From contig JAKSIQ010000016.1 of NCBI GenBank assembly GCA_024398755.1, positions 1-34,322 of the forward strand: 34,322 nucleotides of DNA, written 5' to 3'. The stretch is from Bacteroidaceae bacterium. GTDB lineage: Bacteria > Bacteroidota > Bacteroidia > Bacteroidales > Bacteroidaceae. The translations under genes and the position numbers were made by a program. Positions 1,530-27,742 of this stretch are shown piece by piece (position 1 is the stretch's first letter; each line of letters opens with the position of its first letter). Under the pieces are notes generated by a model. That model was not told the DNA's origin and did not search any database. It worked only from the letters and a program-made list of their open reading frames with translations.

Positions 1530-1544
1530 ATCGTACCTTTTTGA

Positions 1545-2153: not shown

Positions 2154-2172
2154 AGTTGTTTTGCTCTAGAGA

Positions 2173-2793: not shown

Positions 2794-2799
2794 ATTCCT

Positions 2800-3690
2800 T
2801 TAATCTTCAATTGATTCAACATTCTGCTCTTCTTCGCAGCCGTCTTCGTTGCAGCACTGCTGTGCGCAGCAGGCACCGTTCAGGAACGGAAGGTATGAAG
2901 TGAGCACCTTATTAATCATATTGTTCACGCCGGTCGATGTGATGGTTGCGCCGGTAACGCCGTCAATCTGGTAGGCCGATGTTTTGTCAGCCTTGCCGAA
3001 TTTGAGAACCTGAAGGGCAACCTGACCATCGCTGGTCACAATCTTGCCGGGGAAACGGCTCTGGAAAAGGGGAGCCGCAATTTCACCACCAAGACCCGGA
3101 GTTTCGCTGGCATGTGAGAAATATACGCCATAGACTGTCTGGCGGTCTTCATCAAGAGCGATATAGCCCCAGATGACACCCCAAAGTCCAAGACCGTTCA
3201 TCGGGATGACGTACTTGGTCTGACCGTCAACTTCAGCCTGGAAAACATGCAGACGACCTGCATCGTATTCAGAACTGTAACCGGTGCAGAACTCACCTTC
3301 GTAAGGTACCAGCGAGCCATCGGCCTGCATAAGCATATCGGCCTTGACAGCGTTCTGATATGCAGATGCCACATCGGCCTGATCCTTTATGTTCAGAGAT
3401 GCCAGTATCTGCGCCTTTGTGTCATTGATGACATTGGCGGTCTGACGTTCCTTAAGAGTTGATGAAACGAACACCAGCAGGAAAGCCACCAGAATGACCA
3501 TGACAGCTGCATATATAATGGTATAAGCGTTGCTGCTGGTATCAAGTCCCTTCTTCTTTGGTGCTGCGCCACCTTCTACAATCTCTTCGAACTCACTTTT
3601 GGGTGCGCCGCACAACGGGCACTTCTCAGGAGCTTCGTTTCCTTCGTGGACATAGCCACAAACTTTGCATTTGAATTTTTTCGTAGCCAT
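2800..3690 (-). CDS. nqrC: NqrC with N-terminal rubredoxin-like domain and Cys-rich tail
   Basis: NqrC carries a covalently bound FMN on the periplasmic side of the Na+-NQR complex. Here the protein is 296 residues. Residues about 5-37 form a rubrerythrin-type rubredoxin domain with C8-x2-C11-G-Y and C24-P-L-C27. A linker leads to one membrane helix at about 56-75. The FMN domain then carries D243-G-V-T-G-A-T249, with Thr249 the predicted flavinylation site. The last 25 residues add Cys274, 275, 279, 280 and 285. There is no methionine between the rubredoxin domain and the membrane helix, and no in-frame stop, so the fusion is a single reading frame. Spacing to nqrB (5 bases) and nqrD (6 bases) is tight. 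The flavin domain is certain; the role of the extra domain is unknown. Confidence 0.95.
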
Positions 3691-3695
3691 AATCC

Positions 3696-4868
3696 TTATT
3701 TCTTTACAAGTCTTGAAGCTCTGCGGTTCACATTCTTCTGCACAACGCAGTAGTCAATGAGCGGAGCAAAGCAGTTCATAAGCAGAATAGCCAGCATCAT
3801 GCCTTCCGGATAACCAGGATTCATGACACGGATTGTGATGGCCATGGCACCGATAAGCAGACCGTATATCCACTTGCCGCATTCTGTGCGGGCCGATGTT
3901 ACAGGGTCTGTTGCCATGAACACTGCGCCGAAGCAGAAACCGCCTACGCAGATGTGCTCATACCATGGCATGGCAGCCATTGCATTGTCAGGACCCCACT
4001 GGTTGTAAACTACAGCCATTGCGATACCGCCAATGAACACTGACAACATTGTCTTCCAGCTTGCAATGCCGGTATAGAGCAGAAGCAGAGCGCCAAGAGC
4101 AATTGCTATCACGCTTGTTTCACCTACTGAGCCGGGAATGAAGCCCCAGACCATATCCATGGTGAATGCAGGAGCGGCAGCTGTTGTCGATGCTGTACCG
4201 AGAGCGGTAGCTGCGGTCATACCGTCAAGATTGGCACCAAGGCCGCAGATGGTATGGTCAACAACCCATACTGAGTCACCCGAAATGACTGAAGGATAAG
4301 CAAAGAAGATGAATGCACGGGTAATCAGGGCGACGTTCAGGAAGTTCATTCCGGTGCCGCCGAAGATTTCCTTTGCAAAGATTACCGAGAATGCCACTGC
4401 AACTGCAAGAATCCACAGCGGGCAGGTGGCGGGAACAATCAGAGGAATGATAAAACCTGATACCAGGTAACCTTCCTGAATTTCCTCGTGTTTCCACTGT
4501 GCTACGGTGAACTCGATAGCAAGACCTACAACGTATGAAACGATGAGTCTTGGCAGAACGGCCAGGAAGCCGAACCAGAACTTGTTCCAGAATGTGGCCT
4601 GGTCAAGCATGCCGGCAAGAGCGTAGTTCTGATAACCTACATTGTACATACCGAACAGCAGAGCCGGGCAAAGTGCAATGACAACCATGATCATCATGCG
4701 CTTTGAGTCAAATGAGTCGTGAATGTTCACGCCGTTCTTTGCAGTGGTATTCGGAACATAAAGGAAGGATTCGAAACCTTCATAAAGCGAACGGAAGGCA
4801 TGCAGTTTGCCGCCTTCATCGAAGTTCGGTCTGATCTTGTCAAGATAATTTCTTAAACTCATAGTCAT
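3696..4868 (-). CDS. nqrB: Na+-translocating NADH:quinone reductase subunit B
   Basis: A 390-residue membrane subunit with about ten helices. It holds a covalent FMN and probably riboflavin, and helps form the Na+ path. The flavinylation motif is D215-G-M-T-A-A-T221, a variant of Dxx(S/T)GAT with Ala for Gly; Thr221 is the predicted acceptor. Attachment needs an ApbE flavin transferase, which is not in this window. The N-terminal cytoplasmic stretch and the [17 protein letters not shown] region are typical. Two in-frame ATGs two codons apart (4868 and 4862) are both acceptable starts. It lies 7 bases after nqrA. Confidence 0.97.
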
Positions 4869-4875
4869 CCTGTTT

Positions 4876-6225
4876 TTAGGCCATTTCGGCGCGAAGGTTA
4901 TTCAAGCCCTCGCGAACAATGCGCTGGAGCTCAAGCTTTGATGAATCTACAAACTCGCAGAGGGCGAAATCTTCAGGAGCGACCTCATAGATACCGTATG
5001 CCTCCATCTTGTCGATGTTGCCGGTAATGATGGCCTTGATAAGATATTCCGGGAAAATGTCCATCGGGAACACCTTGTCGTATTCGTTCGACATGATCAT
5101 GTGGCGTTCGCTGCCCTTGATACGGGCATCAATGCTGAACTGCTTCTTGCAGCACATCCATGAGAAGAACGAACGGCTTACGCTGAAGTGACCGAAACGT
5201 GGAGCTATCCAGCCCATGAATTCGTTCACGTCATCACCCTCAGGAATAACTGTTACCATGTTTGCAAATGCGCCCAGGAAGTCTTCCTTCGATGCCTTGA
5301 CACCGGTCAGAACGTTTCCGTTGATAATGCGGATGTGTTCGTTGCGGTTCAGACGGCCGTCAAGAATGGAAGCCAGGCTTGCGCCTACAAGAACCTTGGC
5401 GTATGAAGGCTTGGCAATCTCCTCGCCTGCTACGGCAATGACACGTGTCATGTCAACAACACCCTTGTTGAAAAGACGTCCTATGAAGATTACCACTTCG
5501 GGATCCAGAGTCCATACCACCTCACCCTTGTTGACCGGGCTGATGTGGTTGATCTGAACACCTACGTTACCTGCCGGATGAGCGCCTTTGAAAGCGTAAA
5601 CATCGGCATTCTTTGCCTGTGTCAGAGTCGGATTGGTCTGCTTTGCACTGATGCCCAGTGTTGTGGGTGCAATCTTTGCAAGTGCGCTGAGTCCGGTCTG
5701 GAAGTCCAGTTCGTTGCCCTGAAGCACGAACTCGAAGTCAGGTGCAAGCGGTTTGGAATCGAAAGCCGAAACGAAAATACCACGCGGAGTATCGTTCGGA
5801 TTGGCAATGACGTCATAAGGACGCTGACGCAGGAAACCGAAGAGACCGGCCTCCATAAGTGCCTTCTTAACTTCTTCACCAGAAAGAGACTGTACGCTCT
5901 TGGTTCCGAATTCAACATAACTCTGCTCTGCATCGGGCTTGACCACAATGCTCATCACCTTGCGGCGTGCACCGCGGTTCACGGCAACAACCTCACCGCT
6001 GACAGGTGAAACGAACTTCACCTCAGGGTTGTTCTTGTCAATGAACAGGGCTTCGCCGGCCTTGACCTTCTGCTGCTCTTTGACCACCGGCTTCGGAGTC
6101 ACTCCGGTAAAGTCATCGGGGCACAGTGCGTACTGTCCCGCTGCCTCCACCTGGGTGATTTCCTTTGCAGGAGTTCCCAGCAACCTGATGTCCAGACCCT
6201 TTCGTAAACGAATGATTTCTGCCAT
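4876..6225 (-). CDS. nqrA: Na+-translocating NADH:quinone reductase subunit A
   Basis: A 449-residue soluble peripheral subunit on the cytoplasmic face, linked in this family to quinone binding. It opens with MAEIIRLRKGLDIRLLG, the usual NqrA start. A longer frame begins at 6264 with 13 extra residues that do not look like NqrA, so the ATG at 6225 is preferred. It is the first gene of the operon. Upstream on the minus strand, a TAATTTCG at 6275-6282 is one base off the TAnnTTTG element and may be part of the operon promoter, but this is weak. tamB is divergent across the gap. Confidence 0.96.
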   Translation of the reverse strand: MAEIIRLRKGLDIRLLGTPAKEITQVEAAGQYALCPDDFTGVTPKPVVKEQQKVKAGEALFIDKNNPEVKFVSPVSGEVVAVNRGARRKVMSIVVKPDAEQSYVEFGTKSVQSLSGEEVKKALMEAGLFGFLRQRPYDVIANPNDTPRGIFVSAFDSKPLAPDFEFVLQGNELDFQTGLSALAKIAPTTLGISAKQTNPTLTQAKNADVYAFKGAHPAGNVGVQINHISPVNKGEVVWTLDPEVVIFIGRLFNKGVVDMTRVIAVAGEEIAKPSYAKVLVGASLASILDGRLNRNEHIRIINGNVLTGVKASKEDFLGAFANMVTVIPEGDDVNEFMGWIAPRFGHFSVSRSFFSWMCCKKQFSIDARIKGSERHMIMSNEYDKVFPMDIFPEYLIKAIITGNIDKMEAYGIYEVAPEDFALCEFVDSSKLELQRIVREGLNNLRAEMA

Positions 6226-6376
6226 TTTGTTGTTAGTTGGATATGTGTTAATTATTAAGTTCAAAATTCGTGCGCGAAATTACTAATAAAAGGCCAATCT
6301 GCGTCACGCGCGCGCAATTTGTTTTCAACAATGTAGATTTTACTGTTTTAATCAAGGCTTTGTGGCAAACTAGGCT

Positions 6377-12357: not shown

Positions 12358-13629
12358 ATGAAACGTCTTTCATTTGCTGCTGCTCTTCTGGCCATAACGT
12401 CACCATCATGGGGAGACGGCCCGGCATCTCTGTCATCAAAGACAGAAGTCTGGGCCGAAGGTCTGATTGAGGAGATTCTGTCACCCCGCATAATTGCATG
12501 CGGAGACTGGATGAGACCGCCGGTAATTACACTGGGAACCGATGAGACTCTTGAGTTCTCGTTTGACAGGCTGTCAAAAGAACCGCATCAGTTCAATTAT
12601 CACATTGACCACTGCGATGCCGACTGGGAAGTATCCGATCTGCAGTATTCGGAATATATGGACGGTTTTGACAACGAGCAGCTTTATTATGATGATTATT
12701 CACGCAACACCACTTTTGATTATACCCATTTCAGCCTGACAGTTCCCAATGAAATGAACACCCCGATACTGTCCGGCAACTATAAGCTCACCATTTCCGA
12801 GAGTGATTTTCCAGTGGCCGTATTCCGTTTCTGCGTTGTAGAGCCTGCGGCTGCAATAAAGTCAGCCGTTTCCGACATTACCGACATTGACACCCGGGAA
12901 ACCCACCAGCAGGTTACCGCCAGTGTGGAATCGTCAGAACTGGCATGTTTTGATGCCCGAGAGGAACTGAAACTTACAGTGATGCAGAACATGCGCTTTG
13001 ACAATGCGGCACGTATGGTTGCGCCCGATTTCATTCAGGGAAGCACTGTCATCTGGCAGCACTGCGAACCTATGATATTCGATGCCGGGAACGGTTTCAG
13101 ACGCTTTGAGATTACCGATTTCTATGCCAACACCCAGAATGTTGACAAGATAAGCTACTATGATCCGTTCTACCATGCCATGCTGTGCCATGACGAACCT
13201 GGCAGAAATTTCCGTTATGAAGGAGACCATGGAGGACGCATGTACATAAGAAGCACAGAAACAGGAGTTACCGATTATGACACCGAAGCCGACTATGTCT
13301 TTGTACACTTTGAACTGTATTCCGACCTTGTTGACGGAGGAAGCCCCTATATATATTACCAATACGACGGCGCTGGTTTTTCAGCACGTCACAAGATGCA
13401 GTACAGGGGAACACGTCCACATTGCTACGAAGCGGTTCTGCCGTTGAAGATGGGGTCATACGACTACCAGTATCTGTGGGTACCCGATGGAGCGAACCGT
13501 GCGGAAACAGGGCAATTCGAAGGCAATTTCCATCAAACCGGGAACGAATACATGCTGTTCCTGTACCAGAGACGTCCGGGAGACCGGTATGACCGCCTGG
13601 TAGGTTATTCCACTACAATCTTCAAATAA
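12358..13629 (+). CDS. type IX secretion system plug-domain protein (DUF5103)
   Basis: A 423-residue secreted protein with an N-terminal signal peptide (MKRLSFAAALLAITSPSWG, predicted cleavage near residue 19). The body fits the DUF5103 / T9SS plug family: FNYHIDHCDADWE, FDNEQLYYDDYSRNTTFDYT, then a conserved C-terminal part with YYQYDGAGF, YEAVLPLKMGSYDYQYLWV and TGNEYMLFLYQRRPGDRYDR. Family members are thought to close or gate the large outer-membrane channel SprA of the T9SS; that role is taken from the family. The gene is single, divergent from proS, and convergent with the lipoprotein operon across 12 bases. Confidence 0.88.
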   Translation: MKRLSFAAALLAITSPSWGDGPASLSSKTEVWAEGLIEEILSPRIIACGDWMRPPVITLGTDETLEFSFDRLSKEPHQFNYHIDHCDADWEVSDLQYSEYMDGFDNEQLYYDDYSRNTTFDYTHFSLTVPNEMNTPILSGNYKLTISESDFPVAVFRFCVVEPAAAIKSAVSDITDIDTRETHQQVTASVESSELACFDAREELKLTVMQNMRFDNAARMVAPDFIQGSTVIWQHCEPMIFDAGNGFRRFEITDFYANTQNVDKISYYDPFYHAMLCHDEPGRNFRYEGDHGGRMYIRSTETGVTDYDTEADYVFVHFELYSDLVDGGSPYIYYQYDGAGFSARHKMQYRGTRPHCYEAVLPLKMGSYDYQYLWVPDGANRAETGQFEGNFHQTGNEYMLFLYQRRPGDRYDRLVGYSTTIFK

Positions 13630-13641
13630 AGGATTCATAGG

Positions 13642-15198
13642 TCAGAGTCGGTCAATCAGAATGTCCATCTGAGCAATCCTGTCACTCAGCACCTGCTTCA
13701 TCTTTGCCACAGCCTGTTCGAAGGTCATCTCTTCATCGCCGTTTTTCATATCAGGCATGAACCTGCTGAACGGATAGATGGTTTCATCAATATGAGCGCT
13801 GACCGAAAGCTCCGTTGCAAGACTGTCCATATAGTCAAAAATATAAGGATCAACCTTTGATTTATAACTGTCCCATCTGGATTTGACTCTGCGTACGAAC
13901 GCCGTGTCATTCTTCAGATACATATACCAGATTCCATCTGTGAACAGAGATTTGTCAACATCATTGAAAGTTCTGTAGTCAAAGTCCCATAACGGGCCGG
14001 CAAACAGCTTGCCGTCCTTCTTTTTGTACCCATACACTGAGAAACAATTGAAGAATTCGCCATTATTGGTCAGCGACTGGACCAGTCCATAATCAATGAA
14101 TGAATTCATATCATAGTACTGCGAAGAAGCCGTTTCATAATCCCCGCTCACCAGACACTGTTCAAAGCCGTTGTAGAAGCTACTGATGCAGTCAAGAAAT
14201 GACGAATCGCATATTTCATCATCGGGTGACTTGACATTGACAGGCCAGCCGTTAATTGCAGTCCTGAACTTCCACGCCTCGTCATAGTAGTTGTCCATCT
14301 CCAAAAGATAGCCGACATTCACATCAGCAGAATCGGCTCCGATTTCATCAATGTCCACACGGTTTTTGTTGACATTGATCTTTTCAGTAATCTGATACAG
14401 TCCCTCGTGTTTGCCGTTCAGTACCAGTTCCGCGAATTTTGATTTGGGAGTCCACTCCAGGCCGTCGGCCATCTGGCCCAGTCTGAAAGCAACGGCATTT
14501 CGCATCTCCGTACGGTCGCGGAAATTGGCCAGGAAGCACCATGTCTTGTTTTTCGGCATGCCAAGAATCGGACGTTTCTTGTCAAACTTGACATTGAATG
14601 CCACCTTCGGATAAGTGGCGGTTCCGTTTCCGCGTTTTTTGACGAGAACCGAATCTCTGCTGTCCGGAAGTTTGCCGAAACCGTAGGTCTTCAGTTCCGC
14701 AGCAAGCCATTCCGTCTTTGATTCTATGGATTTGCCCTGATTGGTAGCGACAACTATCACCGGCAGACCTGTATATGGCAGGAACGATATGCTGTGGAAC
14801 ACGTCCGACGGTGCAATACCCTGAATGCGTATCTGAGCCGGATACTTTGCCGAGCAGTATATCGGAGTTTCACCGCTGACAAGTTCGTCACCATTCCAGA
14901 TTATCGAACCGTCACCTACAGAAAACCTCGGTATGAGTTCACAAGGCAGTTCAATTGAATCGGCCGATATCATCAGCAGATTGTACGGATCGAGTCCGGT
15001 GCACACGACATCGCTTTTCAGACTGGGGTTATCTTCTTTAAGAAAGGCGAAATACGTGAATTCACTGTACTTTGTCTCCCCTTTGTTATCTTCCTGGCGC
15101 GGGTCTGTCCACCCCTCAGGAAATGACAGAGACATGCAGCCGGCAAGCCAGAAACAAGCCAGTATTGACAGGCATGATATTCTTGCTGTTTTCGTCAT
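13642..15198 (-). CDS. CotH-kinase-like lipoprotein, type A (copy 2)
   Basis: A 518-residue predicted lipoprotein (lipobox LAGC, Cys21). Residues about 45-150 form an Ig-like region with KEDNPSLKSDVV and VSGETPIYC. A CotH-like domain follows: KKRGNGTATYP (about 188-197), LGMPKNKTWCFLANFRDRTE (about 212-231), EWTPKSKFAELVLNGKHEGL (about 248-267), and GKLFAGPLWDFDYRTF with WDFD at 404-407. CotH proteins have a protein-kinase-like fold and phosphorylate spore-coat protein in Bacillus; the substrate here is unknown. Compared with the CotH pattern, the paired Lys after the Gly-rich segment is PKVAF, and the upstream acidic position is Glu in NNGEFFN. The closest relative in the window is the protein at 19695-21236. 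It is last in the six-gene operon, one base after the preceding gene. Confidence 0.85.
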   Translation of the reverse strand: MTKTARISCLSILACFWLAGCMSLSFPEGWTDPRQEDNKGETKYSEFTYFAFLKEDNPSLKSDVVCTGLDPYNLLMISADSIELPCELIPRFSVGDGSIIWNGDELVSGETPIYCSAKYPAQIRIQGIAPSDVFHSISFLPYTGLPVIVVATNQGKSIESKTEWLAAELKTYGFGKLPDSRDSVLVKKRGNGTATYPKVAFNVKFDKKRPILGMPKNKTWCFLANFRDRTEMRNAVAFRLGQMADGLEWTPKSKFAELVLNGKHEGLYQITEKINVNKNRVDIDEIGADSADVNVGYLLEMDNYYDEAWKFRTAINGWPVNVKSPDDEICDSSFLDCISSFYNGFEQCLVSGDYETASSQYYDMNSFIDYGLVQSLTNNGEFFNCFSVYGYKKKDGKLFAGPLWDFDYRTFNDVDKSLFTDGIWYMYLKNDTAFVRRVKSRWDSYKSKVDPYIFDYMDSLATELSVSAHIDETIYPFSRFMPDMKNGDEEMTFEQAVAKMKQVLSDRIAQMDILIDRL

Positions 15199-15199
15199 A

Positions 15200-16798
15200 T
15201 TACCAGGATGAAATTGAATCGTTCAACATCTTGAGTCTGGACGAATAATTCTTTTTCAGTTCCTCAACCGATTCGTCCCATGACATGGATGCATCGGGGT
15301 TGCCCGTTACCCTACCCGGCCATGCCTTGTCGTTGACTACCATCGAGTTTTCTATCATTTCGGCCTGACTGTCAATATATTCCGGAATCGATGCGAATGA
15401 CGGATAATATGTCTGCCAACGGCGTTTTACCATGCTTTTGAAAACAGGATCAAGGAAAAGCCTTGAATACCACAGGCTGTTGTCATTCGAAGTGAAATCG
15501 GTGATTTCATAATCATACAGAAGGAATGAACTGCTGGGATTGAATGCGGCAAGGTCGAAATCCCATACAGGTCCGGCAAACAGTTTGCCATTCCGGTCCT
15601 TGTAGTACCATATTGATCCCGGCAGGCGCGCATCCGTGCAATTGGTCAGTTCAAGCACAATCCAGACATCGGCAAACGATTCCAGATCAATAAGTTCTCT
15701 ATATGCAGGATCGGGAACATCCGCACGATACAGCAGCTGCTCAATTTTCTTGAAATAATCCTCTATGTAATCAATCTGCATATCGTTGATTACATCTTCA
15801 TTAGGAGATTTGATGTTGATTGGCAGGTGTCTGACAGCTGTATTGAACGAAATATTGTCAACATACCGGTCACATTCAAGCAGATAGCCGCCGGTCAGGT
15901 TCTCTCCCGCGGTATCGGTCAAACACATTTCAGTAATGTTGACCCTGTTCTTGCCGATTCTGATCTGTTCGGCAATAAGATACAGGCCACAATACTTGCT
16001 GTTGACAAAGAGTTCACAATACCGTGAGTCAGGAGTCCATGGAAGACCTGTCCTTGAGGATATTTCGAATGCCACCCGGTTTCTCAGCATGGTACGGTCA
16101 GCAGCATTGGCCAGGAAGCACCAGCGTGTGTGTCTGTTCATTCCCATGAATGACGATTTGTTGTCGAACTTCACCGTATACGATTTCTTGAGGTTCTGCA
16201 GCGAATTGTTGCCACGATACTTGGCCTGCGACGGATATATGACATCGCTGTAACCTGACTGCTGACCCGACAACTTCAATATGGAACTTGCCCAGACGCT
16301 CTTGTTGGTGATAGACCTTGATGATACGATTGAAACCACCTGGAAGCCGGTATAATCGCCCTGCGTTATGGAAAAGGTGTATTCCTTATACTGTCCGTCC
16401 GATGCATACAGTCTGTACGTGACAGGCGAACTGAAATCATTAGGCGTTTCTCCGGGAACCTGATCCACACCATCTACAGTCACCTTGGCCGCCACGCAAT
16501 CCCAAGTGGGTACAAGACACATGGAATCAAGACGGTAATGTTCTACAACAGCGGAACACACATCGTTCTGTTTCGCTGAAAACACCAAATCGGCCATGAG
16601 ATTGTCATTGGTCATAGCGTTGATTCGGAATGACTTGAACCTCACCTTGTCAATGGTGCACTCGACAGGCTTCCAACTCTGGTCCGTCACTATATTACCG
16701 CCTAACGGAGTAAGTTCGAACTTGTCAAACATATCATTTCCGCATGCCGTCAACAACAGCATGACCGATGATATGAAAAGCAGTTTCTCAATTCTCAT
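15200..16798 (-). CDS. CotH-kinase-like lipoprotein, type B (copy 2), best preserved
   Basis: A 532-residue predicted lipoprotein (lipobox LTAC, Cys19, followed by Gly-Asn-Asp). An Ig-like/DUF5018-like region covers about residues 45-145, with KVTVDGVDQVPG and NDFSSPVTYRLYASDG. The CotH domain keeps every consensus segment I can compare: KYRGNNSLQNLKKSYTVKFD (193-212), GMNRHTRWCFLANAADRT, GLYLIAEQIRIGKNRVNI, LTNCTDARLPGS with Asp389, and GKLFAGPVWDFDLAAF with WDFD at 412-415. It is therefore the likeliest active enzyme of the four. An in-frame TTG at 16804 overlaps the upstream stop, but ATG at 16798 gives a clean signal peptide (MRIEKLLFISSVMLLLTAC). It starts two bases after the lamin-tail gene. 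The paralogue is at 21230-22843. Confidence 0.88.
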   Translation of the reverse strand: MRIEKLLFISSVMLLLTACGNDMFDKFELTPLGGNIVTDQSWKPVECTIDKVRFKSFRINAMTNDNLMADLVFSAKQNDVCSAVVEHYRLDSMCLVPTWDCVAAKVTVDGVDQVPGETPNDFSSPVTYRLYASDGQYKEYTFSITQGDYTGFQVVSIVSSRSITNKSVWASSILKLSGQQSGYSDVIYPSQAKYRGNNSLQNLKKSYTVKFDNKSSFMGMNRHTRWCFLANAADRTMLRNRVAFEISSRTGLPWTPDSRYCELFVNSKYCGLYLIAEQIRIGKNRVNITEMCLTDTAGENLTGGYLLECDRYVDNISFNTAVRHLPINIKSPNEDVINDMQIDYIEDYFKKIEQLLYRADVPDPAYRELIDLESFADVWIVLELTNCTDARLPGSIWYYKDRNGKLFAGPVWDFDLAAFNPSSSFLLYDYEITDFTSNDNSLWYSRLFLDPVFKSMVKRRWQTYYPSFASIPEYIDSQAEMIENSMVVNDKAWPGRVTGNPDASMSWDESVEELKKNYSSRLKMLNDSISSW

Positions 16799-16800
16799 GC

Positions 16801-17889
16801 TCAATATCCGTCTATGTCAGAAATTGTTTTGCCGGATGGTGTGCCATTTGTATGACCCATGGATCCTGTGCTGACCATCAGCCATTCACCTGTTCCGTCG
16901 GGAACACGGACAATACTTCCTGCAATCGCCGAACTTAGTGTCACAGTGGTCCATCCGGTACTTTTGGAACCTCTCTTCACTTCATCATAAACATATTTCG
17001 CTTTAGTAAAGTCAACATGACCGTCACTAGTGCTGCCGTCACGCAGGCAAAGGCGGAAATTCTTCTGGACATAGTCTTTCAAATCAATTTCTGAAAGATC
17101 TGCCACATAATATCCGTATGGATCAATATTGGTTTCCACCAGTGTTGTCCACACAGTCTTGTTGTCTTCATTCATATCTTTGATTCTGCTCCAACGAAGT
17201 TCAAAGCCGACAATGTTGAACTTTTCCGATGAATTGTTGAACAGTTCAACCTTGTTGTTCTCAAAATCAATCTCATTAATGACTATTGGAAGCATCTTCT
17301 GGTCTATGTCACCAACCTTTGCCCCATTTGCAGTTCCAGGTGTCGAAACCGCGTAAACCCACTCGCCGCCAACTTTAGAGAAAGAATATGCGACACCTTC
17401 GGGGCTTTCACACTTCTGCATGTGAACCTGATTCCATCCTACACCTTTCTGTCCGCGCACAAAGACCGATTTTTCCAATCCGGTAGCATCCTGAAGAAAG
17501 ATGTATGTGTTCTTGCGGGCTGAAAAATCTCGTTTCAGGAAACCGGAGACATTCTCCTTTCCAGCTTCATAAGCAAGACAAAGGTATGATTTCGGACCTA
17601 TGACCTCATCGGTACCTACCCAAAGCGTCTGCTTGTCTTCAACTCCGTCATTCACCCTGAAACGTCTTATCTTGGCACCTCTCAGAGAGACCTTGGTATC
17701 ACTGGAATTGTATAGTTCAATATAGTCTTTAAAACCATTTATTTCGTTCAATGATACGGCGGAAATGTCGGGAAGCTGGTTTCCACCATCTATTCCCGTC
17801 TTGGAATCATCACTACTGCAGGCTGCAGCAAAACACACCATACCAACCAGTGTGACACTCTTGCAGAAATCCAATACACTTTTTGTCAT
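16801..17889 (-). CDS. lipoprotein with two lamin-tail domains
   Basis: A 362-residue predicted lipoprotein. The signal peptide ends in AAAC (Cys24), followed by SSDDSK. Two lamin-tail-domain (LTD) repeats are visible. The first has SLNEINGFKDYIELYNSSD and SLRGAKIRR (about residues 45-75). The second has VINEIDFENNKVELFNNSS and NIVGFELRW (about 202-233). Each is followed by a WT/LWVGT-type strand and a closing GTANG or GHTNGTPSG segment. Bacterial LTDs are Ig-like binding domains on secreted proteins, sometimes found in the same polypeptide as a CotH domain; here they are on a separate protein. Acidic residues just after the lipid Cys resemble the Bacteroides surface-export signal, so it may face outward. 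No catalytic motif is seen. Confidence 0.85.
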   Translation of the reverse strand: MTKSVLDFCKSVTLVGMVCFAAACSSDDSKTGIDGGNQLPDISAVSLNEINGFKDYIELYNSSDTKVSLRGAKIRRFRVNDGVEDKQTLWVGTDEVIGPKSYLCLAYEAGKENVSGFLKRDFSARKNTYIFLQDATGLEKSVFVRGQKGVGWNQVHMQKCESPEGVAYSFSKVGGEWVYAVSTPGTANGAKVGDIDQKMLPIVINEIDFENNKVELFNNSSEKFNIVGFELRWSRIKDMNEDNKTVWTTLVETNIDPYGYYVADLSEIDLKDYVQKNFRLCLRDGSTSDGHVDFTKAKYVYDEVKRGSKSTGWTTVTLSSAIAGSIVRVPDGTGEWLMVSTGSMGHTNGTPSGKTISDIDGY

Positions 17890-17919
17890 AATCTGTATTA
17901 TTTATTTGCTGTATTTGTT

Positions 17920-19680
17920 TCAGAACTGACGTTCAACCTTACTTTCATAGCCGTCATACATGATCAGATATTTGTTCATCTGTTCTTTTGTATACTTTCC
18001 GTTTATTGGCAACACACCCTGCGAAGGCTCTTTGGCATTCTTTATTCTGTCAGAATATTTCCCCTGCAAATCCTTGCGGAGCAATGAGACCTGATACTGC
18101 GCATAGTCCTTGCTGTCATCGTCGTATTCAGCCTCATATCTGGAGACATATTTTTCAGCCATCTTCACCACCCTGTCTGTAAAGTTGCAGTTTACAAGCA
18201 CTGTCCCGTCAGACTGCACGGCGCTGGAGAAGCCGTACAGGTTCTCAGTGAGCGGTAATGCAGGCCCTTCGGCACCATCAATCACGAACGACAGGTCTGT
18301 AAAAATATATGTGGCATCAATGGGGACCGTCACAGTCACTATTGTGAATCCCTCCTGAGTCAATGAGTCCTTCATTGTCATTGAAGATGTCATTTCCTTG
18401 TATTCGTAGAGTTCGTCATAGGTTGTCACCCAGATGTTGTCTTCACCGTATTTTCCGTACAAGTCATAGATTTCACACAGGAAATCCAAAGCATCCTTCT
18501 GAGGACGGTGGTCAAGTTTACCTACCAGCTCCGGCTGTTCAGACGTGCTCTGCACTCCAAGTTCTTGTATCTTGTCATCATAGTTGGCTTCTGTGAATCC
18601 GCCGAACACCTCACGTTTTTCAAGCGATGTGGAATCGTCCATAAGTCTGACAGGCTGCGATATTCCATTACCTGTAGTTGCACGAGTCATATGGACATAA
18701 GGACTGATGAGTGCGGCCTCAAGGTATGAACCGTTTCCGTCAGGCTGGGCAAGCACCTTCATCGGATAACCTATCTTGCTGTACGTCTTTTTATAATCGG
18801 TTTCAATTCCTTTGACAAGTGCTTTCACATCATGTTCAAGCGTGTCAGTCTCGGAAGTGGGTACGTTATGCCAATGGACGGCGTTACCCATATCGGTCAT
18901 AATCTGCAGTTCCTCCCACGATATGTACGGACTGAAAACCGATTTGTTCACATCAAGAATGAAACCTTCGGGATTGTATTCCCCGGACAGTGAGGGCCAG
19001 ATGGCAGAACCGAATGTGAAACGGCGGTCATTGCCGCATCCGTCAGTGAAACAGAGCGGGTACTGCTGTCTGTAACCTGTGGTCTTCCTCAATCCGAGAT
19101 GGAAGAACTCCTGATTGTCAATCCATCTTCCGTTGATTGTAGCAAACACTCTTGACCACGCATTAACCGATGCGTCATCAACAGTATAGCAGAATACCAT
19201 GTGCTTGTTGTACTTCAACGGCGCTACTCTGACACTGACAGGCTGTGTACCAGGCACCTTGAATTTGAACGTCACATTTTCCGGATCGGAGCCTGGAACC
19301 GGCATGGAGGCACGAGTCAGATGGCCGCCGGCGTCCGGCGTACTCTGATTGCAGATAATGTCCGGTTTTACCGACATGGTATATACATCCTTGAGCAGGT
19401 TGGCGCCCGAAGGGTCTTTTGCACGCATTTTGACAGAAAGCTCACTTTTGAAGCCTTCATCCTTCTCTATGCTCGTCATCCAATGTGTCGATGACAACTG
19501 CACCGTCTCAATGTTTCCATTGTAATTTCTGTAGCAGACATTCATATCGAACAGATCGAGGGCATCGTACGAGACATCCACGACATACGATATCTGATCG
19601 GGCAGATTCAGGCGGTTTATGCATGATGTGCATACAAGCACCGCCAGTGCGGAAAGAGTCTTTTTTCCAATAGTTCTCAT
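17920..19680 (-). CDS. lipoprotein resembling a polysaccharide deacetylase
   Basis: A 586-residue predicted lipoprotein; the signal sequence MRTIGKKTLSALAVLVCTSC puts Cys at 20, with an atypical Cys at -3. An N-terminal beta-rich region covers about residues 30-155. A region then resembles a divergent NodB-type polysaccharide deacetylase: MVFCYTVDDAS with Asp168-Asp169, WEELQIMTDMGNAVHWHNV with His269 and His271, and KVLAQPDGNGSYL near 310-320, which could match the RxPYG strand. If so it would be a metal-dependent carbohydrate deacetylase at the envelope, but the match is by eye and the catalytic set is unproven. The last 150 residues are beta-rich and then helical and charged. A GTG at 19698 overlapping the upstream stop is an alternative start. 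A 30-base gap separates it from the lamin-tail gene. Confidence 0.6.
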   Translation of the reverse strand: MRTIGKKTLSALAVLVCTSCINRLNLPDQISYVVDVSYDALDLFDMNVCYRNYNGNIETVQLSSTHWMTSIEKDEGFKSELSVKMRAKDPSGANLLKDVYTMSVKPDIICNQSTPDAGGHLTRASMPVPGSDPENVTFKFKVPGTQPVSVRVAPLKYNKHMVFCYTVDDASVNAWSRVFATINGRWIDNQEFFHLGLRKTTGYRQQYPLCFTDGCGNDRRFTFGSAIWPSLSGEYNPEGFILDVNKSVFSPYISWEELQIMTDMGNAVHWHNVPTSETDTLEHDVKALVKGIETDYKKTYSKIGYPMKVLAQPDGNGSYLEAALISPYVHMTRATTGNGISQPVRLMDDSTSLEKREVFGGFTEANYDDKIQELGVQSTSEQPELVGKLDHRPQKDALDFLCEIYDLYGKYGEDNIWVTTYDELYEYKEMTSSMTMKDSLTQEGFTIVTVTVPIDATYIFTDLSFVIDGAEGPALPLTENLYGFSSAVQSDGTVLVNCNFTDRVVKMAEKYVSRYEAEYDDDSKDYAQYQVSLLRKDLQGKYSDRIKNAKEPSQGVLPINGKYTKEQMNKYLIMYDGYESKVERQF

Positions 19681-19694
19681 ATGATATGTCCGTG

Positions 19695-21236
19695 TCACTT
19701 GACAGAGTTAATTTCCTTGTCCATCCAATCTATTCTGAGTCCGATGAATGTTTTAAGACGGGTTACAGCATCCTCAAAAGAAAGTCCGTCATCATCATTC
19801 TGATATGAAGGCGCATACATGCCGTATGGATACAGATTTTCTGATGCATGCACTGCAGGTGCCACAACACATGCAAGGCTGTCAATGCAAGCGTATATGC
19901 GCGATTCTACCGCCGGTTTCAATTCAGCCCATCTGGTCCTGATCTGGCTGCAGAACTCCAGATTGTCCTTCAGATACCTGTACCAATGGAACTCCGTAAA
20001 GAGCTCCAATGAATCGTTATTGAAGGAACCATATTCAAAATTCCACAACGGACCGGCATAAAGCCTGCCGCCATTCTTCTTGTACGAATATACCGATTTC
20101 TGGTCACACAGACCGTTATTTGAGGTCAGAGACTGTATCAGACCATAGTCAACGAATGAACGCACATCAATGGAATCGTACACATCACCGTATGCCCCGC
20201 TTTCCAGATTGTCTTCAAGGCTGTTGATGAAAGATTTGATATAAAGCAGCTTGGAATAGTCGCAGTCATCACCGGTAGGCGACACCATATTGACATACCA
20301 GCGGTTAGTCTTTGAGCGGAACTTCCAGAGTTCGGAATAGCTGCGATCCATATTCAGAATATAAGCGTCGGTTTCATCAATGTCAATGCGGTCCTCATCG
20401 ATGCATATCTGTTCCGTTATCTGATAAAGTCCCTGGTATCGGCCGTTGACCGTCAGATTGGCATAACGTGAAGAAGGAGTCCATTCAAGTCCGCCAGCCA
20501 GCCGTCCCATTTCAAAAGCCACCGAACTGCGAAGCTGCGTCCTGTCTTCGAAATTGGCCAGGAAGCACCAGCGCCTGTTGCTCTTCATGCCCATGAGCGG
20601 AAGATCATGCAGCGATTCCAACTTGAACGACATTTTTGGTGCATTGTCTGACATGCGCATATACCTGACACGTACTGAATCTTTTGAATCGGGCAGCTGT
20701 CCCATGCCACGGGTTATCATGGTGGCATCCAGCCAGTCATTCCGTGAGTCCAATCCTGCACCGCCATCGACTGTTATTTCAATGACCGGAAGATTGGAAT
20801 ACGGCACGAATGACAGACTGTGGTATTCTGTCTTTCCTGACGCACCTTCTATTCGGAGAAGAGCATCCTGGTTAAGCGAGCAATAAATTTCACTTGCTCC
20901 GCTGACCAGTTTTTCACCGTTGTAGAACACCGTACCATATTCAGTTGAGAATCTGGGCTTGAGCATGCAGGGCATATCCAGAGGGAAGTCCAGAATCATG
21001 GCAAGGCCCACCGTACTCAGATCGTCACAGTATATATCACGCTCCCGACAAGGGTTGTCTTCCGTGAGGAAGGCGAACGATTTCGAGTTTATCGCCCCTG
21101 TAATATCCGACATCTGTTTGTCGATAATATGCCTGCGCTGTTCAATCCAGTCATCAGACAAGGACAATGACGTACAGCCCGACACAAGGATGAGCAGGGA
21201 AAGCATACTTGCCGATATGAAATGTTTCCTTACCAT
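19695..21236 (-). CDS. CotH-kinase-like lipoprotein, type A (copy 1), degenerate motif
   Basis: A 513-residue predicted lipoprotein. ATG at 21236 gives MVRKHFISASMLSLLILVSG and then Cys21. The longer frame back to 21353 adds 39 charged residues inside the upstream gene and is rejected. The same architecture as the protein at 13642-15198: an Ig-like region (LTEDNPCRERDIYC, VSGASEIYC) then a CotH-like domain with LMGMKSNRRWCFLANFEDRT, EWTPSSRYANLTVNGRYQGL and GRLYAGPLWNFEYGSF. The WDFD segment is WNFE (398-401), so both Asp are replaced. The Gly-rich RGN segment reads RYMRMSDNAPKMSF, and the upstream Asp position is Gly. It is probably a non-catalytic CotH paralogue. It overlaps the upstream gene by 7 bases. 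Confidence 0.82.
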   Translation of the reverse strand: MVRKHFISASMLSLLILVSGCTSLSLSDDWIEQRRHIIDKQMSDITGAINSKSFAFLTEDNPCRERDIYCDDLSTVGLAMILDFPLDMPCMLKPRFSTEYGTVFYNGEKLVSGASEIYCSLNQDALLRIEGASGKTEYHSLSFVPYSNLPVIEITVDGGAGLDSRNDWLDATMITRGMGQLPDSKDSVRVRYMRMSDNAPKMSFKLESLHDLPLMGMKSNRRWCFLANFEDRTQLRSSVAFEMGRLAGGLEWTPSSRYANLTVNGRYQGLYQITEQICIDEDRIDIDETDAYILNMDRSYSELWKFRSKTNRWYVNMVSPTGDDCDYSKLLYIKSFINSLEDNLESGAYGDVYDSIDVRSFVDYGLIQSLTSNNGLCDQKSVYSYKKNGGRLYAGPLWNFEYGSFNNDSLELFTEFHWYRYLKDNLEFCSQIRTRWAELKPAVESRIYACIDSLACVVAPAVHASENLYPYGMYAPSYQNDDDGLSFEDAVTRLKTFIGLRIDWMDKEINSVK

Positions 21237-22843
21237 GCGCTGATATTGTTGTCCATAAATGTCCACCTGGCCTTCAGATGGCTGTTCAATGAATCGACGG
21301 CTTCCTTCCATGGAAGTCTGGCATCGGCATTTGCATTTTGGTCTGTTTTCCACAGCGTAAGGCTAAGCTGTGCCGACTCACTTATTACGGAAGCCTGTTC
21401 CCCCACATAGTCAGTGATTGACCGCAAGGCCTCCTTATGCTGTATCCAGCTGTCCTTTACCGCATTTACGAAAGCCTCGTCCCGGAACAGTCTTGAATAC
21501 CACAGGCTTCGGCTGGCACTGCCGAAATCGACCGTCTCATAATTGCGAAGAATGAAGCGGTCAACCGTATTGAATGTGTACTTGTCAAAATCAAGCAGAG
21601 GTCCTGCAGACAGTTTTTCTCCTGCATTCTTGTAATACCATACCGAATACGGATATGTGGCCGATTCGCACATGGTCATCTCAAGGGCAATCCAACAGTC
21701 CGCAAAAGTTTTGATATCCACAAGGCTGCGATATGCGATATCAGGAACTTCCTTCTGGTACAAGTACTGTTCAATGCGCTTCATGTAATCCTTTGCATAA
21801 TTTTCCTGATTCAAATCAGGATTCTCCGGATAGACAATATTAACAGGCAGTTCCCTGACTGCTGTCTTGAACCAGTGTTTCTCCCTGTTCTGATCGACCT
21901 TGAAAAGGAAACCGGAATTTGACGGATTACTGCTGTCAGATGCCGACAGACTGACCTTGTCGCTGCCAACTTCCACTTGTTCGGCAAGAAGATACAGGCC
22001 CTTGTATTCGCTGTTCACAAACAGTTCACAGTATTCACATGAAGGCACCCAGCACACATCCATGATTGAACTTATCCTATAGGCCACTTTGTTTCGCAGG
22101 AATGTACGGTCCGGAATATTTGCCACAAGACTCCATCTGGTTCCCGGTTTCATGCCCAGCATTGAAGTCTTCCTGTCAAGTCTGACATCAAACGATTTTT
22201 TTGTTGACGAATAAGAATTGTCGTAAAGGAATCTGGCTGAGGCGCTCCCCTTATAAGTCACATGCCCGACGTTCTGGTCCGCAATCTTCATACTGGCCGG
22301 AATCCATGAATACTGGTCCGATATGTTTTTTGACGAGTACAGTGAAATTACCGGCAGACCGGTATAGGAACCCTGTTTGAGCACCAAAGCATAAATCCTG
22401 TAACTGCCGTCCGATGCATACAGACGATATTTCAGGGTATCGCTGAAATCATTTGCAGTAACTCCGGGCAACTGATCGGTGCCATCGACCGTAACCTTTG
22501 CCGCAACACAGTCCCAGCTTGCAATAAGGCTGTCCTTGGGAAGATAATAATGGCTTACCAAGGCAGTGTAGCAATAAATGGAATCGTTTGCCACTCCGTC
22601 GAACGCGAATTTCAAATCGCTTAGGACCTCGTTATTGGCTGATGTCAGAATTGCGAATGACTTCAGCACCACCTGGCTGATAGAGCAATCTGTCGGAGTC
22701 CATGTACCGGCGTCCGATTCCGTTCTTTTTTCTCTGGAAAGACTGTCATATCTGTCAAACAGATCGGTACCACATGCACTTGCAAGCAGCACGGCAATCG
22801 GTACGGCAATCGGTACGACAATGGAACGCAGCAGTCTGTTCAT
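21230..22843 (-). CDS. CotH-kinase-like lipoprotein, type B (copy 1)
   Basis: A 537-residue predicted lipoprotein (lipobox ASAC, Cys24, followed by Gly-Thr-Asp). It has the same layout as the protein at 15200-16798: an Ig-like/DUF5018-like region with KVTVDGTDQLPG and NDFSDTLKYRLYASDG, then a CotH-like domain with TYKGSASARF and TKKSFDVRLDRK (about 196-225), GMKPGTRWSLVANIPDRT, GLYLLAEQVEVGSDKVSL and EKLSAGPLLDFDKYTF. DFD is kept, but Trp is Leu (LDFD, 417-420). The Asp equivalent to Asp389 of the other B copy is Ser394, with Glu393 beside it. It is the first gene of the six-gene operon, behind the promoter element at 22869-22876. The signal peptide contains a VPIA duplication. Confidence 0.85.
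   Translation of the reverse strand: MNRLLRSIVVPIAVPIAVLLASACGTDLFDRYDSLSREKRTESDAGTWTPTDCSISQVVLKSFAILTSANNEVLSDLKFAFDGVANDSIYCYTALVSHYYLPKDSLIASWDCVAAKVTVDGTDQLPGVTANDFSDTLKYRLYASDGSYRIYALVLKQGSYTGLPVISLYSSKNISDQYSWIPASMKIADQNVGHVTYKGSASARFLYDNSYSSTKKSFDVRLDRKTSMLGMKPGTRWSLVANIPDRTFLRNKVAYRISSIMDVCWVPSCEYCELFVNSEYKGLYLLAEQVEVGSDKVSLSASDSSNPSNSGFLFKVDQNREKHWFKTAVRELPVNIVYPENPDLNQENYAKDYMKRIEQYLYQKEVPDIAYRSLVDIKTFADCWIALEMTMCESATYPYSVWYYKNAGEKLSAGPLLDFDKYTFNTVDRFILRNYETVDFGSASRSLWYSRLFRDEAFVNAVKDSWIQHKEALRSITDYVGEQASVISESAQLSLTLWKTDQNANADARLPWKEAVDSLNSHLKARWTFMDNNISAW
22791..22814. repeat. 12-bp tandem duplication inside a signal-peptide coding region
   Basis: ACGGCAATCGGT occurs twice in a row (22791-22802 and 22803-22814), followed by a degenerate ACGACAATGG. 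It encodes VPIAVPIA in the hydrophobic core of the signal peptide of the CotH-like protein at 21230-22843. The unit is a multiple of three, so copy changes would keep the frame and change the core length by four residues. Confidence 0.85.
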
Positions 22844-22868: not shown

Positions 22869-22876
22869 CAAAAATA
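22869..22876 (-). promoter_or_regulatory. -7 element (TATTTTTG) for the CotH lipoprotein operon
   Basis: On the minus strand this reads TATTTTTG, an exact TAnnTTTG match, 25 bases upstream of the ATG at 22843. A TTG at 22895-22897 (minus strand) is 18 bases further up and could be the -33 element. I see no other such element before the internal genes of this operon, so all six are probably transcribed from here. Confidence 0.6.
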
Positions 22877-22965: not shown

Positions 22966-24234
22966 ATGCAACCTCTTGCCGAAAGAATGAGACCAAGGTC
23001 TCTGGACGATTATGTAGGCCAGCAGCACCTTGTCGGCCAAGGAGCCGTATTGCGCCGCATGATTGATTCCGGCCGCATTTCATCGTTCATACTGTGGGGA
23101 CCTCCAGGAACAGGCAAGACCACGCTGGCCCAAATTGTGGCAAGCCGTCTTGAACTGCCGTTCAGCACGTTGAGCGCTGTGACAGCCGGAGTCAAAGAAG
23201 TGCGTGACGTAATTGACCGTGCCAAAGCGAACCCGCTGTTCCGCACAAAGGGCAGTCCCATCCTTTTCATCGATGAAATCCACCGTTTCAACAAAGCCCA
23301 GCAGGACTCTCTGCTAGGTGCTGTGGAACGCGGAGACATAACGCTTATCGGCGCAACCACCGAAAACCCGTCTTTCGAAGTCATACGTCCGCTGCTTTCA
23401 CGAATGCAGGTCTACGTACTGAATTCACTCGGAAAAGAAGACCTGCTGAAACTTGTGGAACGCGCCATATCGACCGATGAAATCCTCAGCCGCCGTCACA
23501 TCGAACTGAAAGAAAACACCGCCCTGCTGCGTTTTTCCGGGGGTGATGCACGCAAGCTGCTCAACATTCTCGAACTTGTTGTCGAAGCATGTGGCGACGG
23601 CGACGTCTCCATTACCGACAGTCTGGTCACCGAATGTCTGCAGCAGAACCCGCTTGCCTACGACAAGGACGGCGAGATGCACTACGACATAATATCGGCC
23701 TTCATAAAATCCGTCCGTGGCAGCGACCCCGATGCCGCCCTTTACTGGCTGGCACGCATGGTCCAGGCCGGCGAAGATCCGGCTTTCATTGCCCGGCGTC
23801 TCATTATTTCCGCCAGCGAAGATGTCGGGCTTGCAAACCCCAACGCCCTGCTTATAGCAAACGCAGCATTCGACGCGGTACAGAAAATAGGCTGGCCCGA
23901 AGGACGCATTCCGCTGGCCGAAGCAACCGTTTACCTGGCAACCAGTCCCAAGAGCAATTCCGCATACATGGGCATCAACACCGCACTTGAAACGGTGAAT
24001 CAGACGGGCAATCTGCCGGTACCTCTGCATCTGCGCAACGCCCCCACTTCACTCATGAAGGATTTGGGCTATTCGGCCGGGTACAAATACGCCCACGACT
24101 ACCAGGACCATTATGTCAAGCAGCAGTACCTGCCTGACGAACTCAAGGACACAACATTCTGGACAGCGCAGAACAACCAGCAGGAGCTCAAGATCAAAGA
24201 GCGCCTCGATGCGTTGAAATCCCGCACCGACTGA
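22966..24234 (+). CDS. rarA: replication-associated recombination protein A (RarA/MgsA AAA+ ATPase)
   Basis: A 422-residue cytoplasmic AAA+ ATPase related to clamp-loader and RuvB ATPases, acting at stalled replication forks. It opens with the family-typical PLAERMRPRSLDDYVGQQHL. Walker A is GPPGTGKTT (about 45-53), Walker B is ILFIDEIHRF, sensor 1 is LIGATTENPSF and the arginine-finger region is RPLLSRMQVY. The C-terminal part has SAFIKSVRGSDPDAALYWLA and ARRLIISASEDVGLANP, diagnostic for RarA. Length is normal. It is a single gene with its own promoter, convergent with the glutamine synthetase gene across the repeat array at 24296-24500. Confidence 0.97.
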   Translation: MQPLAERMRPRSLDDYVGQQHLVGQGAVLRRMIDSGRISSFILWGPPGTGKTTLAQIVASRLELPFSTLSAVTAGVKEVRDVIDRAKANPLFRTKGSPILFIDEIHRFNKAQQDSLLGAVERGDITLIGATTENPSFEVIRPLLSRMQVYVLNSLGKEDLLKLVERAISTDEILSRRHIELKENTALLRFSGGDARKLLNILELVVEACGDGDVSITDSLVTECLQQNPLAYDKDGEMHYDIISAFIKSVRGSDPDAALYWLARMVQAGEDPAFIARRLIISASEDVGLANPNALLIANAAFDAVQKIGWPEGRIPLAEATVYLATSPKSNSAYMGINTALETVNQTGNLPVPLHLRNAPTSLMKDLGYSAGYKYAHDYQDHYVKQQYLPDELKDTTFWTAQNNQQELKIKERLDALKSRTD

Positions 24235-26815: not shown

Positions 26816-27742
26816 TCACCGGTCTGTTTTCCGAGTCTGATAATCCAGAAGCGCCAATCTGTAAAGCTTGTAGAAAGAGAACAGGAACAGGACAGGATGC
26901 CTGCCCGTAAGGTTACGTCTGATGAACGGATACGCCACACGCCCAAGGCAACGGACCGGAGCGGCCAGATGCAGACGTGACAGATTACGGTATGTGTTCA
27001 GCAGTTTCGATCCGTTTCCAACGGAGTTTTCAGCCTGCAGCAAAGTGGAAACCGCCGCATCAGTCTTTGCCAGATAATCGGCGTTGTCATCGATGCCAGT
27101 ATGTATCAGCGGGTTGTCAATATGCAGAATCGGCACGCCGCGGCTTTCCAGGCACATTCCAAACTCCACATCCTCGTATCCGTAGGCTGTAATGCCTTCA
27201 TCGAACCGGACCGACTGGAAAACGCTGCGGTCAATGAGGAATGAGAACGGAGTGAAGTTGTCATACGGGTGCCGGCTGCGGAATTTTGCGGACCGATGAC
27301 GGTCGGCAGCCTTTTCATAGCGATAGCGCAGTTCCTTTCCCGGCGCCGGGAGCCTGTCCGGATGCCTCAGTCCGCCACAGATTACAGATGCCTGTCCTGC
27401 AACTGCCATATATGCGGCAAGGAACGTATCACTGTCCGTTTCCGCATCACAGTCAATGAAAAGCAGTTTGTCATAAACCGCATTGTCAGCCAGGAAATTC
27501 CTGATGGCGGCGCGTCCCTTGTTGCTGTCAAGCGCAAAGTAGCGGCATCCTTCCAGGGCCGATGCCGTTGACGCCACCTTTTCCTTCAGCGTCAGGTCTG
27601 ACGAACAGTCGTCGGCAACCAGCAGTTCAAAGCCCGATGCTATTGCACGGCCCTGCCTATGCAGTTCCTTGAGCAAGTTGCTGCAATCCCAGTTGTAAAC
27701 CGGAACCAGCACAGACAGTCCTTCAGAAACCTGATTATCCAT
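26816..27742 (-). CDS. family 2 glycosyltransferase
   Basis: A 308-residue predicted GT-A fold glycosyltransferase. The N-terminal nucleotide-binding strand is LSVLVPVYNWD, followed by FELLVADDCSSD, NKGRAAIRNFLAD, and the metal/nucleotide motif LFIDCDAETD at about residue 95. FDEGITAYGYEDVEFGMCL is the acceptor/catalytic segment seen in galactosyltransferase-like GT2 members. There is no signal peptide. The C-terminal region is basic and partly hydrophobic (YPFIRRNLTGRHPVLFLFSF), which may attach it to the membrane. Donor and acceptor cannot be read from sequence; cell-surface glycan synthesis is likely. It starts three bases after the TIGR02757 gene, so the two are co-transcribed. Confidence 0.88.
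   Translation of the reverse strand: MDNQVSEGLSVLVPVYNWDCSNLLKELHRQGRAIASGFELLVADDCSSDLTLKEKVASTASALEGCRYFALDSNKGRAAIRNFLADNAVYDKLLFIDCDAETDSDTFLAAYMAVAGQASVICGGLRHPDRLPAPGKELRYRYEKAADRHRSAKFRSRHPYDNFTPFSFLIDRSVFQSVRFDEGITAYGYEDVEFGMCLESRGVPILHIDNPLIHTGIDDNADYLAKTDAAVSTLLQAENSVGNGSKLLNTYRNLSRLHLAAPVRCLGRVAYPFIRRNLTGRHPVLFLFSFYKLYRLALLDYQTRKTDR

Follow-up and report, generated by a model that had tools for sequence, protein, structure and literature searches.

Intact and degenerate CotH kinase-like lipoproteins side by side in a gut-bacterium operon suggest a kinase held with inactive helper copies

The closest well-described relative of the proteins considered here is CotH, the spore coat kinase of Bacillus (PF08757; structures 5jd9 and 5jda, the only solved CotH relatives that we found), whose domain carries two Asp motifs, N-x-D and W-D. 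The second of these Asp residues is D251 in B. subtilis CotH, and we take it to bind the metal. Passages of PubMed Central (PMC) article PMC7821199 present D228Q as the catalytically inactive form of CotH used in B. subtilis. In animals, the secreted kinases Fam20C and Fam20A are distantly related to CotH and cooperate as active and inactive paralogues: parts of PMC4421793 report that Fam20A activates Fam20C, and that in Fam20A a Gln replaces the Glu that coordinates Mn and the ion-pair Lys. Here we describe a six-gene operon of a Bacteroidaceae bacterium (assembly GCA_024398755.1, contig JAKSIQ010000016.1), found in a stretch of 34,322 nucleotides that we call the window. The operon has the CotH domain and its two Asp motifs in common with Bacillus CotH, but here the CotH proteins are predicted to be lipoproteins that are exported and carry an additional N-terminal domain, and they form a set of four paralogues, of which two lack the catalytic positions. 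The locus differs from Fam20C-Fam20A in the residues that were lost and in that the pairing is read from gene neighbourhood alone, but by analogy with some secreted animal kinases it suggests that a gut bacterium may hold a working kinase together with inactive helper copies.

The operon lies on the minus strand at 13642-22843, and its transcription order is B1 (21230-22843), A1 (19695-21236), a polysaccharide-deacetylase-like lipoprotein (DEA, 17920-19680), a lipoprotein with two lamin-tail-domain stretches (LTD, 16801-17889), B2 (15200-16798) and A2 (13642-15198), the A and B genes encoding CotH lipoproteins of two types. What is new is that the two A/B pairs differ, the downstream pair being intact and the upstream pair degenerate at the active site, as judged from Pfam matches and motif tables. 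The full set, in the same order and with the same flanks, was also found in a single further genome, a Bacteroidaceae metagenome-assembled genome (MAG) from horse faeces, which represents a sister species (G029), and because gene order and neighbours are alike in both species, we take the six-gene grouping to be more than chance. In both species, B2 and A2 keep all three of the positions that we followed (the loop Gly, the catalytic acid and the metal Asp), the acid being Asp in B2 and Glu in A2. In the window, B2 keeps R195 and G196, D389, and W412 and D413, with C387 in place of the Asn of N-x-D, while A2 keeps the loop Arg-Gly, E381 at the catalytic position and D405, with Val in place of the second Lys of a KK motif. 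In B1 and A1 of either species neither the loop Gly nor the acid is present, and three of these four proteins have lost the metal Asp as well. The loop Arg-Gly of B1 has become LY here and LN in the sister species, its catalytic acid is Ser here and Asn there, and its metal Asp is kept here and replaced by Asn there; in A1 of both species the loop Gly is lost, the acid is Gly and the metal Asp is Asn (two alignments place the A1 loop Arg differently, and agree that the Gly is missing). As the original prediction had it, some copies are kinase-like and others pseudokinase-like, to judge from the motif tables. The link to the solved structures comes through another CotH protein of the same genome (L001), whose N-A-D and W-D align with QNFDGF and PWDYD of 5jd9, in a weak segment of 1.9 bits; the spacing of the two Asp is 23 residues in 5jd9 and 24 residues in B2.

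To place these residues among their relatives we used 136 CotH hits, from which 7 fragments shorter than 200 residues and 19 repeats were dropped and 29 operon rows were set apart, leaving 81 non-operon domains, of which one was cut at the end of its stretch and 80 were scored. An acid occupies the catalytic position in 79 of the 80 (53 Asp, 26 Glu), the metal Asp is present in 79, and the loop Gly in every one. CotH relatives with Glu at the catalytic position are therefore common, so that Glu alone is no indication of loss, and in the enclosing tree group Glu is found in 22 of the 30 non-operon rows, with Asp in the other 8. A reading based on the first 35 relatives, in which the Glu of A2 was a loss and B2 the sole active copy, was dropped when Glu turned up in 25 of 66 and then in 26 of 80 domains.

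The profile searches that the original prediction proposed place four proteins above the PF08757 cut-off of 23.8 bits (B1 91.8, A1 103.6, B2 148.4, A2 99.8) and one, LTD, above that of PF00932; no NCBIfam model reached its cut-off for any of the six operon proteins. The Pfam scores were obtained from longer frames for A1 (552 residues), DEA (from GTG 19698) and B2 (from TTG 16804). In the B and A proteins the CotH match is the C-terminal 310-335 residues, and the domain upstream of it has weak matches in B2 only, to Cadherin-like (E 0.07) and DUF5018-related (E 0.1) models. The genome as a whole has ten CotH matches, four of them in the operon, and since two of the other six share one frame, these represent nine genes.

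Both the A gene and the B gene have been duplicated. The case was first made from short segments shared within each type (KVTVDG, NDFS and YRLYASDG; EDNP and VSG), and these are indeed present, in the domain upstream of CotH, but they are no proof alone and trees were needed. A first tree, of 43 CotH proteins (8 from the operon and 35 relatives, one fragment having been dropped), places B1, B2 and their orthologues in the sister species in one clade with support 100/100, and the A proteins in another with the same support. A second tree of 49 rows, with 8 operon proteins, 10 of the 35 and 31 among the better-scoring relatives that the family and order searches had yielded (after removal of repeats and of pieces shorter than 300 residues), gave 100/100 for the B clade and 100/99 for the A clade. 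Each set of copies is thus monophyletic, the outcome on which the original prediction had staked its duplicated B-A pair, and within both clades the split between copies 1 and 2 predates the split between the species. Grouping A1 with B1 was rejected, at a cost of 143 log-likelihood units and a p value in the approximately unbiased test (p-AU) of 5.7e-48, and a single clade of all eight A and B proteins gave a p-AU of 0.054. Path lengths in the second tree are alike (1.31 for B1-B2, 1.36 for A1-A2), which fits duplication of the pair as one block without proving it; we infer that the pair was probably copied in one step.

Comparison of the two species also tells us how the copies have fared since. 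Protein identity is 53.0% for B1, 60.6% for A1, 67.2% for B2, 78.9% for A2, 63.6% for DEA and 58.4% for LTD, so that the upstream pair is less conserved than the downstream pair and A2 is the most conserved member of the operon; in the flanks it is 69.0% for the product of a type IX secretion plug gene, 90.5% for that of rarA, 96.2% for glnN and 98.6% for proS. Across the six genes the proportion of nonsynonymous differences (pN) is 0.12-0.31 and that of synonymous differences (pS) 0.50-0.75 (B1 0.31 and 0.75, A1 0.24 and 0.74), and synonymous sites are saturated, which makes the ratio of nonsynonymous to synonymous rates (dN/dS) a rough guide only. The frames of B1 and A1 are intact in both species, at 513-537 amino acids. 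Unlike decaying genes, the degenerate B1 and A1 are kept under purifying selection, and they fit the definition of predicted pseudokinases: members of a kinase family, with the catalytic residues gone, that selection has kept.

A second case of such neighbours lies in another genus of the same family. The sole degenerate domain among the 80 (L154 5894-7702, genome G132) is followed, 45 bases downstream, by an intact gene that is its sister in the tree (support 100/97), and a lipobox-like stretch stands close to the N-terminus of both proteins. When 80 genomes of the genus were searched (E<=1e-60), 8 of them gave 11 matches in total; one further genome (G721) has the same adjacent pair, the upstream member with Asn and Gly for the two acids and the downstream member intact, and the three positions are intact in the remaining 7 matches, which come from 6 genomes. 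The arrangement is like that of the operon in having a degenerate gene upstream and an intact one downstream, but it comprises two genes with no B/A split, and the G132 stretch has no DEA-like or LTD-like open reading frame (ORF). As the members of this pair are sisters in another clade, they arose separately from the operon pair, and neighbours predicted from their residues to be a CotH pseudokinase and a kinase have arisen at least twice. Degenerate CotH proteins are rare among those examined, and in each of the three lineages that have one (B1, A1 and the G132/G721 pair) it lies upstream of its intact paralogue. Solitary CotH genes of Bacteroidales, such as those in G680, G101 and G066, fall in the enclosing tree group and share with A2 the Glu at the catalytic position, but these are single genes, their motifs are intact, and the stretches read around them show no DEA-like or LTD-like ORF. 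Among other arrangements, one protein (G457, L132 1498-4131) carries two tandem CotH domains, each with intact motifs, the first with Asp and the second with Glu at the catalytic position, and another genome (G059, L051 5809-14057) has four tandem CotH genes whose motifs are all intact; in the one CotH protein scanned there, a ricin-type lectin domain was found together with a match to a type IX sorting tail that stays below cut-off.

The operon itself is rare. A survey for the six-gene order across Bacteroidales, suggested at the outset, found it in only 2 of 37 genomes of the genus and, beyond the window's own genome, in none of the samples of family (301 genomes) and order (393 genomes), so that a general Bacteroidales cluster is rejected on the samples searched with DEA, A-type and LTD anchors. 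A DEA profile matched 2 of the 37 genus genomes, many of which are incomplete MAGs in which a single absence is unproven, and gave 28 matches in the order sample including the window's own, the best outside the genus scoring 528 bits (G441); a single-protein DEA search of the family gave 5 matches, again including the window's own. The sister species is absent from the family and order matches listed, as those samples did not include it. A scan of contigs with two deacetylases matched only the Bacteroidaceae MAG Horse_feces26 (JAKSIR010000015.1). With the A-type profile, the best non-operon match among those listed scored 315 bits, against 949 for A1 and 979 for A2, and with the LTD profile (E<=1e-12) the window's genome was the only match in the family sample, the other 300 giving none. 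We read the surroundings of the DEA relative in 6 of the 27 other order matches (G441, G059, G604, G667, G618 and G496) and in G538; no CotH-like ORF appeared in the G441 stretch, and nowhere else, in the stretches read, were DEA relatives and CotH relatives neighbours. The plug gene, read in 9 of the 34 other genus members with a match to it, has rarA next to it or one gene away in six (G021, G008, G011, G018, G031 and G007) and is separated from it by three other genes in a seventh (G017), rarA falling outside the stretch in G015 and G028; none of the nine stretches contains a CotH-like ORF. This fits a gain of the operon at the plug-rarA site in the lineage of the window's genome and its sister species, the alternative being loss elsewhere. 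The three other genes at the site in G017 (L110 5752-8376) raise the thought that it may often take insertions.

How might all this work? The reading that we favour, to which we would give a probability of about 40%, is of an exported, lipid-anchored kinase module in which B2 and A2 would be active and B1 and A1 non-catalytic partners. Ancestral B and A lipoproteins, themselves paralogues, would have worked jointly; we regard B and A together as the functional unit, since each of the two was duplicated and they have stayed side by side. The adjacent pair would have been duplicated before the species split, its copies coming to flank DEA and LTD, and while B2 and A2 would have kept the kinase positions, B1 and A1 would have lost them, evolving faster and yet being retained. 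B1 and A1 may then bind B2 and A2 and regulate or scaffold them, as Fam20A does with Fam20C, and the complex might phosphorylate a neighbouring component of the envelope, be it the LTD protein, DEA, another lipoprotein or a glycan. Complex formation, kinase activity and substrate are all, of course, deductions from sequence. We also entertain a wider idea, possible in our view though rather doubtful, that exported bacterial CotH kinases repeatedly gain pseudokinase partners by tandem duplication, the principle of Fam20C and Fam20A having arisen independently in bacteria, and that the present operon may be a four-subunit envelope form of it with esterase-like and LTD lipoproteins.

Several things weigh against the kinase module and should be said openly. 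We know of no ATP (adenosine triphosphate) supply outside the bacterial inner membrane. The Cys of B2 stands two residues before the catalytic acid, where 76 of the 80 domains have Asn, and the Val of A2 stands where 74 of the 80 have Lys; given these deviations, B2 and A2 may themselves be inactive. The catalytic position of A2 is Glu, and L145, the row nearest the A clade, has Asp. The 80 domains were picked by similarity to the operon or came from fetched stretches, and so are a non-random sample. Finally, pairing with a pseudokinase is not general: in five further CotH sets, tandem or fused (L051, L132, L171, L172 and L173), every member is intact. For many relatives the flank covered was only 1.5 kb, and more tandem partners may have been missed.

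The alternative that survives best, though we consider it unlikely, is that all the CotH domains are structural, building a lipid-anchored surface assembly for adhesion or glycan binding with no catalysis at all. It would sit well with the absence of a known ATP source for these lipoproteins, with the single departures of B2 and A2 from otherwise conserved sites, and with evolution as fast as that of many surface proteins (53-79% identity in the operon against 90.5-98.6% for rarA, glnN and proS, the plug protein being at its 69.0%), but three positions kept in B2 and A2 and not in B1 and A1, in both species, amount to a selective retention that points to catalysis. Distinctly less probable is the idea that B1 and A1 are not inactive at all, and use the kinase fold for another reaction or have relocated their residues. 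Kinase folds can certainly be turned to other chemistry, as SelO AMPylates and SidJ polyglutamylates, and B1 and A1 are full-length, conserved and under purifying selection. A bacterial pseudokinase with polyglutamylation activity, cited in a passage of PMC9758233, offers a precedent. Against this, the lost positions of B1 vary between the species (Ser or Asn, Asp or Asn), unlike a new conserved site, and the metal Asp is missing from three of the four proteins. We give equally poor odds to a mobile or accessory island of six genes with unrelated functions that merely have a promoter in common: the missing DEA-anchor match in 35 of the 37 genus genomes (many incomplete), the other genes at the same site in G017, the LTD and DEA relatives not seen beside CotH elsewhere in the stretches read, and a GC (guanine plus cytosine) content slightly below that of the five flanking genes would all suit it, while order, spacing and flanks have been kept even though the operon proteins are only 53-79% identical. 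That B1 and A1 are decaying duplicates heading for loss is very improbable, for while they form the less conserved pair and their key residues are gone, their frames are intact in both species after saturating synonymous divergence, their pN is well below their pS, and they are still the first two genes of the operon.

The kinase module is worth pursuing because CotH relatives are common in Bacteroidales, an A-type profile (E<=1e-25) matching at least 143 of the 393 sampled order genomes, and because matched intact and degenerate paralogues give a direct handle on the role of exported kinases, the phosphate donor and the need for an inactive partner. Both independent tandem cases are small enough for expression and testing. 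In the open-licence PMC literature we found nothing on the operon, on CotH pseudokinases or on degenerate CotH beside intact copies, and no functional work on CotH relatives in Bacteroidales.

Turning to the gene models, all six ORFs that had been proposed for one strand were found there, and their order and tight spacing stand, while the starts of A1, DEA and B2 had to be revised. The most likely start of A1 is ATG 21236, which we chose because GTG 21353 would overlap B1 by 124 bases, and the likely starts of DEA and B2 are at 19680 and 16798; with ATG starts the gaps are, in order, -7, 14, 30, 2 and 1 bases. The -7 element noticed earlier is TATTTTTG (22869-22876, minus strand), read 25 bases upstream of B1 as the candidate operon promoter, and the sister species has TATCTTTG upstream of its B1; the Bacteroidetes consensus is TAnnTTTG. 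A lipobox-like stretch ending in Cys at residues 19-24 bears out the claim of six lipoproteins. A script pattern flagged Cys 24 in B1, 21 in A1, 24 in LTD, 19 in B2 and 21 in A2 (where 15 was flagged too); in DEA it flagged Cys17, whereas our choice by eye is Cys20 (LVCTSC), matched in the alignment by the Cys that was flagged in the sister species. The likely Cys residues of A1 (AGC) and A2 (MSC) in that species, both missed by the pattern, were likewise read by eye. The six genes would probably share one transcript, and their products are predicted to be exported. GC content is 0.44-0.47 in the six genes and 0.49-0.55 in the five flanking genes, with similar third-position GC except in LTD.

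DEA belongs to PF15421 (Polysacc_deac_3; 102.4 bits, cut-off 28.5) and shares with the other proteins of that family the profile and the DD/H/H residues, although these proteins have no CotH neighbour in the stretches read. Of 12 aligned sequences, all have H271 and H391, and the 10 that extend over D168 and D169 have both of these as well. The classical metal motif of carbohydrate esterase family 4 (CE4) is H-x-x-x-H, and DEA departs from this NodB/CE4 pattern in lacking the second His, only H271 of that stretch being conserved among its relatives. One relative lies between two glycosyltransferase genes (G063), another is near glycogen-type enzymes (G667), and a third has an acyltransferase gene next to it, along with a weak glycosyltransferase match that falls below cut-off (G059), neighbours that agree with a carbohydrate substrate. 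The G441 relative (L109 2212-3957), from another family, is full-length with 43% identity and comes directly after genes for an HATPase_c protein and an Na/Ca exchanger. LTD matches PF00932 in two stretches (39.0 bits, cut-off 34.3), and SSDD directly follows its likely lipid Cys, resembling the surface-export signal of Bacteroidetes lipoproteins.

Both flanking genes are on the plus strand and outside the operon: the type IX secretion plug protein gene at 12358-13629 (NF052315, 344.5 bits, cut-off 100), with proS beyond it, and, upstream of the operon, the RarA/MgsA-type AAA+ ATPase gene rarA at 22966-24234 (MgsA_C, 254.6 bits, cut-off 27). Further out, the window has at 261-6264 a row of six genes matching nqrA-F, for the Na+-translocating NADH:quinone reductase, and at 26816-27742 a gene for an HfsG-like polysaccharide biosynthesis protein, at 122.7 bits under the family cut-off of 500.

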